A DNA stretch of 36,625 bases, from the NCBI GenBank assembly GCA_019244055.1, contig JAFATG010000197.1, positions 1 through 36,625 of the forward strand, in the 5' to 3' direction. This document shows, one piece after another, positions 5,146 through 7,110 of the stretch. The translations under genes and the position numbers were made by a program. This stretch comes from Acidobacteriaceae bacterium. Its GTDB lineage: Bacteria; Acidobacteriota; Terriglobia; Bryobacterales; Bryobacteraceae. Under the pieces are notes generated by a model. The model was not told the DNA's origin, did no database searches, and saw nothing but the letters and a program-made list of their open reading frames with translations. The number at the start of each line of letters is the position of its first letter. The stretch's first letter is position 1.

Positions 5146-5565
5146 ATGTTGCTGACTCGCAGAGCGGAATTTTCGGCCTCTCATTTCTGCCGAATACCGT
5201 CGTTAAGCGAAGTCGAAAATCGCGAGATTTTCGGCGAGGAAGCCAATCTCAACGGGCATGGGCACAACTACATCGTGGAAGTAACGGTTGAAGGTGAGCC
5301 CGATCCGGTAACAGGGATCGTCATGGACCTGAAGGAGATGAAACGGATTCTGGACCGTGAAATCGTCGAGCCAATGGATCATCGGTTTCTGAACCTCGAA
5401 ATTCCTCCATTCCAGGATGTGATCCCCACGACTGCAAATCTGGCTCGCGAGATCTGGCGCAGGCTTCAGCCGTTCTTCAGTGCAAGTCCCGCGATGCTCT
5501 CCCGCGTTCGGCTCTATGAGACTGCCGATCTTTATGTCGACATTGTCGGTGAGGATGGTGCATGA
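5146..5565 (+). CDS. 6-pyruvoyl-tetrahydropterin synthase-like protein A, catalytic Cys replaced by Glu (PTPS-III-like)
   Basis: This 139-residue COG0720 (PTPS/QueD) protein keeps all three zinc ligands: His13 in FSASH, and His38 and His40 in GHGH. The catalytic Cys position, which is Cys33 in the next gene, is Glu32 here (FGEEANLNGHGH). The Asp-His pair of the triad is present as Asp78-His79 in MDHRFLN, and the pterin-anchoring Glu is present in RLYET. Glu replacing Cys is the hallmark of PTPS-III enzymes, which make 6-hydroxymethyl-dihydropterin from dihydroneopterin triphosphate and so bypass FolB. An in-frame TAG just before ATG 5146 fixes the start, although no ribosome-binding site is evident. 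Its stop overlaps the next start as ATGA, so the two are translationally coupled. Queuosine QueD activity is unlikely without Cys. Confidence 0.88.
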   Translation: MLLTRRAEFSASHFCRIPSLSEVENREIFGEEANLNGHGHNYIVEVTVEGEPDPVTGIVMDLKEMKRILDREIVEPMDHRFLNLEIPPFQDVIPTTANLAREIWRRLQPFFSASPAMLSRVRLYETADLYVDIVGEDGA

Positions 5566-6044
5566 TCAGTCTCACTCGCCGCTATCAATTTTCCGCTTCT
5601 CACCGCCTGCATTCGTCCGCCCTCAGCCAATCCGAAAACAGCCGCGTATATGGTAAGTGCAACAACCCGTTCGGCCATGGACACGATTACATTCTCGAAA
5701 TCACAGTGGGTGGCCCTGTCTCGCCCGAAACTGGCTTGATAATCTCTGTTCCTGCGCTTGATTCTTTCGTTGAACGCCATGTTCTCCGACTGGTAGCGCA
5801 TCGCAATCTCAACCTCGATGTGCCTCCATTTGCACATCTCGTTCCGACCACGGAAAATCTGGCCCTCGTAATTACCAGCTTCATCCGGCGGCACTGGCCC
5901 GACTCATTTGGCGACAGCGAGGCTTATCCATATCGCGTTAGGCTTGATGAAACCGATCGAAACCGCTTCGAAATTTTCCTGCCGGTATCAGGAGCGAATT
6001 TCGCGTTGAATACCTATACCGAAACGGCCCTCAGTCATGTCTAG
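5562..6044 (+). CDS. 6-pyruvoyl-tetrahydropterin synthase-like protein B, Cys kept but triad Asp lost
   Basis: This 160-residue second COG0720 paralogue is clearly different in sequence from its neighbour. Zinc ligands are His14, His39 and His41. The catalytic Cys33 lies in [12 protein letters not shown], and the Cys-x5-HGH spacing resembles PTPS-II rather than QueD, which has Cys-x3-HGH. The triad Asp is replaced: VAHRNLN gives Ala79-His80 where protein A has Asp78-His79. The Asp of the usual GxxxD segment is also gone (GLIISVPAL). The Glu anchor is kept in RLDET. The gene starts inside the stop of protein A and overlaps folE by eight bases. It may act on dihydroneopterin triphosphate alone, or complement protein A in a mixed oligomer; the second idea is my inference. 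Confidence 0.87.
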
Positions 6045-6690
6045 AACCAAAATATCTGCGCTTAAATCCGGCAGCACGCCCAAAAAGAAAGGCTCGCTGA
6101 TCGAGCTTCAGCCGAAAGGCTCAAACGTTTCGATTGCCGGTCACATGCGCGAAGTGTTGAAGGCGCTCGGCGAAGATCCCGATCGAGGCGGACTTGTCAG
6201 CACTCCGGAGCGGATCGAGAAGGCCCTCCGCTATCTCACTAGCGGCTACTCCGCCGACCTCGGCGAAATTGTGAATGGTGCTCTGTTCGAAGTTAACTAC
6301 GACGAAATCGTTATCGTTCGCGATATCGAATTCTTCAGCATGTGCGAGCACCATATGCTCCCGTTTTTTGGCAAAGTTCACGTAGCTTATCTTCCCGACA
6401 GCAAAGTGATCGGGCTCAGTAAAATTCCGCGAATCGTGGATGTCTTTGCGCGCCGTCTCCAGATACAGGAGCGCCTTACCCAGCAGGTTGCCGAGACCAT
6501 TCAGCAGCTTATTCAGCCACGCGGTGTGGCCGTCATCTGCGACGCCCGGCATTTTTGCATGATGATGCGCGGGGTTGAAAAGCAGCATTCAGGGGCAATT
6601 ACCAGCGCGATGCTCGGAGCATTTCGTGACAACAAAGAGACACGCAGCGAGTTGCTTTCCCTTGTCGGACAGCGCGCGAGGGCTATTTGA
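6037..6690 (+). CDS. folE: GTP cyclohydrolase I
   Basis: FolE converts GTP to 7,8-dihydroneopterin triphosphate, the first step of folate and other pterin pathways and the substrate of PTPS enzymes. The 217-residue protein has a variable N-terminal extension of about 30 residues and then the full FolE domain. Zinc ligands are Cys103 and His106 in [11 protein letters not shown], and Cys174 in [12 protein letters not shown]. The signature [18 protein letters not shown] is intact. It overlaps the upstream PTPS gene by eight bases and so belongs to the same coupled operon, which would supply substrate directly to both PTPS-like proteins. The cytoplasmic homodecameric form of the family is expected. 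No dihydroneopterin aldolase (folB) is in the window. Confidence 0.97.
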
Positions 6691-6732: not shown

Positions 6733-7110
6733 ATGAGTGACCAGTCCCGCCTCTTTGAGGCAGGCCCGGATCCATTCGGGCGCATGTGGAAGATCCAGTT
6801 CCGCTGGCTCCAGACAGGTATCTCAATCCGCCACGCCGATACTGTGGATGTGAAGTTCTTTGTTACTGCCGATGGCGGCGAATCCGAAGAGAAAGTGATC
6901 GCTCTCCCCCACCCTGCCCTGCTTCAGCTCACTTCCAACCGAGGACGCAAACTCACTGATTCTTATTGCCGGCGTCTGGCGGCGGCACACCTGCGCCATA
7001 TGATCGAAACCTCGGAGGATATCGAACAGACTCTGGTTACGCTAACTCCTGAGGAGTTGGCTGCCTATGACCGCGAATTGAGCGATGTAACGGTTCTCCG
7101 GCAAGCGTGA
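6733..7110 (+). CDS. Conserved-looking hypothetical protein, 125 aa
   Basis: I do not recognise a family. The 125-residue protein has no signal peptide or membrane segment and looks globular. The N-terminal half is beta-rich with aromatic residues (WKIQFRWLQTGISI, VDVKFFVT), and the C-terminal half is helical (SYCRRLAAAHLRHMIETSEDIEQ). It begins at ATG 6733, 42 bases after folE on the same strand, so it may be read through from the pterin operon, but the gap leaves room for its own promoter. Composition resembles its neighbours, so it is probably a real gene. A 14-base word near its start recurs just at its stop codon (see the repeat entry). Confidence 0.7.
   Translation: MSDQSRLFEAGPDPFGRMWKIQFRWLQTGISIRHADTVDVKFFVTADGGESEEKVIALPHPALLQLTSNRGRKLTDSYCRRLAAAHLRHMIETSEDIEQTLVTLTPEELAAYDRELSDVTVLRQA

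Follow-up and report, generated by a model that had tools for sequence, protein, structure and literature searches.

Catalytic residues divided between two overlapping 6-pyruvoyl-tetrahydropterin synthase paralogues of Acidobacteriota: a predicted heteromeric enzyme

Contig JAFATG010000197.1 of an Acidobacteriaceae bacterium (assembly GCA_019244055.1), analysed over positions 1 to 36,625 (hereafter the window), carries two overlapping genes, A and B, encoding paralogues of 6-pyruvoyl-tetrahydropterin synthase (PTPS). Neither possesses the complete Cys-Asp-His triad that defines a PTPS-II enzyme, which raises the question of whether they are two separate enzymes or the parts of one. Overall, their residues and those of their relatives argue that A and B are two obligate subunits of a single heteromeric 6-pyruvoyl-tetrahydropterin synthase (probability of roughly 0.8), and that they very probably work only together.

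Retained and lost catalytic residues

Gene A (5146-5565, + strand) encodes a 139 aa protein and gene B (5562-6044, + strand) a 160 aa protein. Both belong to the PTPS family of T-fold proteins, with PF01242 scores of 110.6 bits (E 6e-32) for A and 79.8 bits (E 2e-22) for B against a curated Pfam cut-off of 22.4, and with matches to rat PTPS of 119 and 114 bits, respectively; they share 44% identity over 128 aligned positions. Residues read by script showed three zinc-binding histidines in each (A His13, His38 and His40; B His14, His39 and His41), as well as Glu125 in A and Glu130 in B. A has Glu32 (codon 5239-5241) where the catalytic Cys would be expected, a position that varies in its relatives, and possesses Asp78-His79 (5377-5382). 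B has Cys33 (5658-5660) inside a CxxxxxHGH motif, and Ala79-His80 (5796-5801) at the Asp-His position, the Asp being lost and the His retained. These readings confirmed the sequence-only reading of the locus, which had noted the complementary substitutions, the intact zinc ligands and the ATGA overlap of the two genes (5562-5565). The PTPS-II motif CxxxxxHGH occurs once per pair, in B and not in A, while the PTPS-I (QueD) motif CxxxHGH and the motif assigned to PTPS-III, ExxHGH (PMC5041015), are absent from both. The genome's third PTPS, a QueD-like protein encoded on another contig, retains both catalytic sides, and the same holds for every one of the 30 best-scoring PTPS from the phylum search (QueD-like rows, with this genome's own copy among them), so that the residue losses of A and B exceed chance.

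In rat PTPS, one subunit contributes Cys and Glu, and a second one contributes Asp-His. This subunit division fits the segregation of residues between A and B. The catalytic triad is reportedly intersubunit, to go by the title of Burgisser's 1995 paper. The enzyme has been described as a dimer of trimers, with every site located among three adjacent monomers (PMC7546909).

The distribution of the losses was surveyed within the class, where B as query matched 93 of 121 genomes (a count including matches to A and QueD). The class set comprised 95 pair-bearing genomes from 51 genera, after removal of duplicate loci (L073, L074, L090, L091) and of the B fragment of L165. A preceded B on the same strand in all 94 loci where both could be read, and 94 of the 95 fetched loci also contained FolE. 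Asp-His was retained in A in 95/95 genomes, and Cys was kept in 71 and lost in 24, being replaced by Ala (8), Glu (7), Asn (3), Asp (2), Leu (2), Gly (1) or Ser (1); all 21 class-set members of the window's own family (f1) lacked it. B retained Cys in 94/94 genomes, with Asp and/or His altered in 33 and Asp-His kept in 61, and none of its changes fell on Cys, the zinc histidines or Glu. The loss of Cys in A and a change of Asp-His in B occurred together in 13 genomes, all within f1. On column-masked trees, at least 16 changes were counted at Asp-His of B (11 at His alone) and at least one at Cys of A; were the seven catalytic residues equally likely to change, the chance that all B changes fell on Asp or His would be about 2e-9, a crude value. 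The trees were quick or FastTree ones, with most or all QueD rows left out, and many of their forks were unresolved, which leaves any count of independent origins provisional. Among four further pair genomes outside the count (G049, G163, G217 and G332), three had both sites intact in both genes, and B of G332 ended in a stretch of undetermined bases.

A prediction fixed before reading, according to which A retains Asp-His and B retains Cys, the zinc histidines and Glu, held in a held-out sample of 122 further f1 genomes (gapped rows were dropped from the counts). A retained Asp-His in 122/122 genomes and had Cys in 0 of 121 readable rows, where Ala (74), Glu (17), Ser (13), Asp (9) and Gly (8) were found instead; ExxHGH was present in only 2 of 124 A rows. 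Cys was retained in all 120 readable B, and Asp-His was altered in 59 and kept in 60 of 119. One A had lost a zinc His and two had lost Glu, while no readable B lacked a zinc His or Glu.

The sequence-only reading had proposed that one site could be built from the Cys of B and the Asp-His of A. Weak when based on one pair, this idea gains strong support from the consistent direction of the losses in 95 + 122 genomes, and from the same split in fused proteins and in pairs on different contigs. Two accompanying expectations had to be given up, namely that A would hold Glu-type sites, as its Cys position in f1 is most often occupied by Ala and otherwise by Glu, Ser, Asp, Gly or Asn, and that the two losses would always coincide, as many B keep Asp-His and most class A keep Cys. 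The invariant feature is which side each protein may lose, and not the coincidence of the losses. Operons in which B keeps its Asp, named beforehand as evidence against the idea, do exist; A or B occurring independently, named likewise, was not found among 150 family genomes. A clear A was absent from eight of these 150, several of them incomplete: seven had only a QueD-like PTPS or none, and one had B at a contig end beside FolE.

Outside the class, matches were read down to E 4e-13, and weaker ones (2e-10 and above) were left out. The same split was found inside one chain in two-domain fusions (family f14, with five genomes, and G005), between copies on different contigs in five genomes, where the A-like copy was also without a zinc His and Glu, and in a further tandem pair (G156), whose B-like copy had QueD-like spacing and a very long branch. 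In four genomes (f17) both copies were intact and the split was not followed. Relatives without a partner had all catalytic residues intact in 17/17 rows. Viral contigs searched with B yielded no relative.

A pattern scan of genome contigs with the fused alignment confirmed 267 relatives, of which the best 80 were analysed and 75 had two domains. Acidobacteriota fusions showed the complementary split in 6/6 readable cases, and one further fusion was partial. Among Bacillota fusions, 46 of 48 had lost the His of half 1 and had a complete half 2, and the other two had a dead half 1. Both halves were intact in Chloroflexota (5), Binatota with one Desulfurellaceae bin (6) and a melainabacterium (1); in Latescibacterota, Gemmatimonadota and one cyanobacterium (8), half 2 was complete and half 1 variously damaged. 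Fused PTPS commonly show one decayed half, and among the best 80 of 267 the reciprocal split is confined to Acidobacteriota. As further observations on fused chains, the half 1 His loss of the Bacillota proteins L192-L240 was mostly Asp-Gly, the Paenibacillus proteins L203 and L233 had a half 1 without a zinc ligand, Cys and His, and Nostoc chains (L254-L257) contained three PTPS domains, of which the first lacked Cys and had a changed zinc motif.

Gene neighbours, folate and product

The gene for FolE (GTP cyclohydrolase I; 6037-6690, + strand; TIGR00063, 252 bits) starts within the end of B, and A, B and FolE are three consecutive overlapping genes on the + strand. FolE produces the PTPS substrate. 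Directly 3' of it, a 125-aa open reading frame (6733-7110) had no Pfam or NCBIfam match at E 0.001. Since B carries the PTPS-II motif, 6-pyruvoyl-tetrahydropterin is the expected product, and the pair probably makes this compound and not a folate precursor. Near the fusions, a short-chain dehydrogenase adjoined the fused gene in 5/5 neighbour-scanned loci (three Bacillota, one Herpetosiphon and L241) and FolE was present in 4/5, which suggests tetrahydropterin over folate synthesis at those loci. No PF00351 match, and hence no aromatic amino acid hydroxylase of that family to point to a tetrahydrobiopterin pathway or to a user of the product, was found in the window's genome.

The window's genome had no FolB, and FolK was found. 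Its own QueD-like protein (L001; 1498-1878 on contig C357) contains CENVHGH, an instance of the motif CExxHGH ascribed to PTPS-I/III hybrids that serve folate and queuosine (PMC5041015). Among 17 class genomes, a CExxHGH QueD occurred in 5 of 9 without FolB and in 0 of 8 with FolB, and this protein is likely to substitute for FolB in the window's genome. A FolB bypass as the main role of the pair was set aside, the pair being found both with and without FolB (with it in three of six f1 genomes); some class genomes possessed neither FolB nor the pair. The QueD motif accounts for five of the nine FolB-less genomes, and not for G344 or three f87 genomes. Neither a FolB match nor a CExxHGH QueD was seen in G344, G303, G310 and G317 (loci L263, L273-L275).

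A shared active site and its alternatives

In the proposed heteromer, B would be the zinc, Cys and Glu subunit, supplying the zinc ion through its three histidines, the catalytic Cys33 and the pterin-binding Glu130, and A would be the donor of the Asp78-His79 relay to B's site, formed between subunits. The adjacent FolE would feed it dihydroneopterin triphosphate. The mirror site, made of the zinc pocket of A and the Asp-His position of B, would be dispensable and decay freely; if it were no longer needed, this would explain why Cys is lost from A in every readable f1 member and why Asp or His of B is altered repeatedly. In distant lineages the A-like partner has lost zinc ligands or Glu as well. 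From the residue partition and its recurrence, the co-occurrence of the genes, the operon structure and the fusions, we infer a physical A-B complex, activity of the mixture only, and the product. The odds appear evenly balanced for a wider proposal, in which the PTPS site was split between paralogues several times in Acidobacteriota (tandem, fused and on different contigs), each time into a metal-and-Cys subunit and an Asp-His donor, and in which the heteromer consists of stacked A3/B3 rings or an even-numbered ring like that of urate oxidase, because two subunits cannot strictly alternate in the three-membered T-fold rings of PTPS. The fused L181 protein (family f14) was modelled with confidence by AlphaFold as two domains, and the model resembles urate oxidase along its length.

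Several observations weigh against an obligate heteromer. The B of the window has lost only its Asp, with His still present, and most class pairs outside f1 retain Cys in A, many of them retaining both sites, so homomers are possible there. The loss of Cys from A carries little independent weight, because one event on the tree could account for it, and fused PTPS do not in general show the reciprocal split, because nearly all Bacillota fusions combine a half 1 lacking the His with a complete half 2. G064 has one intact copy and one that has lost both sides, and 7 of the 17 partnerless control genomes carry a third PTPS outside that reading.

An unlikely explanation, on the precedent of trypanosomatid deoxyhypusine synthase (PMC3663545), is that catalysis belongs to one member alone, the other serving as an allosteric activator or a scaffold with no share in the active site. 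The fusions of Bacillota, Latescibacterota and Gemmatimonadota, with half 2 complete and half 1 decaying, would suit such an arrangement; in about half of f1, however, no full triad is present in either member (13/21; 59/119 readable) and therefore neither can be a complete enzyme, and what A retains is exactly Asp-His. That A and B each form a homomeric enzyme of their own, a PTPS-III-like folate enzyme with a Glu base in the case of A and a diverged PTPS-II in that of B, is decidedly unlikely, even though the Glu of A resembles that of Plasmodium PTPS, whose Glu38 is described as needed for the folate product (PMC2229834), and the FolB-less genome with FolK would leave room for such an enzyme. 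The PTPS-III reading of A was rejected, as Glu is not conserved (Ala predominating in the held-out rows) and ExxHGH is absent; moreover, the genome's own CExxHGH protein, the distribution of its motif and the occurrence of the pair beside FolB all argue against it, and it offers no reason for the invariable retention of Asp-His in A and of Cys in B. Redundant copies drifting without a joint function, with which the many intact class pairs would agree, are very improbable indeed: drift would strike any catalytic residue, whereas the changes in class B all fell on Asp or His, and the order of A before B was constant.

If the heteromeric synthase is real, two gene products would share out one PTPS catalytic triad, and living relatives would preserve the intermediates: forms with both sites intact, with one or both of them lost, and with the metal lost. 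The transition from a homomer to an obligate heteromer would thus be open to direct experiment, and single-chain motif annotation would misread such proteins as dead or as folate enzymes.

Comparison with known systems

No report of a heteromeric PTPS was found in the openly licensed literature on PTPS families, their active site, heteromers and paralogues. The homohexameric PTPS-II of rat and human (PDB 1b66, 1gtq, 3i2b) shares with the pair the fold, the three zinc histidines, the Glu and the intersubunit triad (predicted for the pair), as well as the CxxxxxHGH motif of B and, at the window, the adjoining FolE; one polypeptide there has all the catalytic residues, whereas the pair divides them over two paralogues. 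PTPS-III (Plasmodium and the bacterial FolB bypass) resembles the window's A in having Glu in place of Cys, but A has no ExxHGH, its Glu is unconserved in orthologues, and the CExxHGH QueD is the better candidate for replacing FolB. Tandem-domain T-fold enzymes such as urate oxidase and GTP cyclohydrolase IB have two T-folds per chain, as do the fused PTPS relatives, but their chemistry is different, identity is about 5-11%, and the halves in the window are separate genes. The nearest analogue found is trypanosomatid deoxyhypusine synthase, a DHSc/DHSp heterotetramer which, like AdoMetDC with its prozyme, is described as combining paralogues which by themselves have impaired activity or none and become active once joined in a heteromer (PMC3663545), as is predicted here; there a dead paralogue is described as activating its partner, whereas the prediction for A and B is that each contributes catalytic residues of its own to a shared site.
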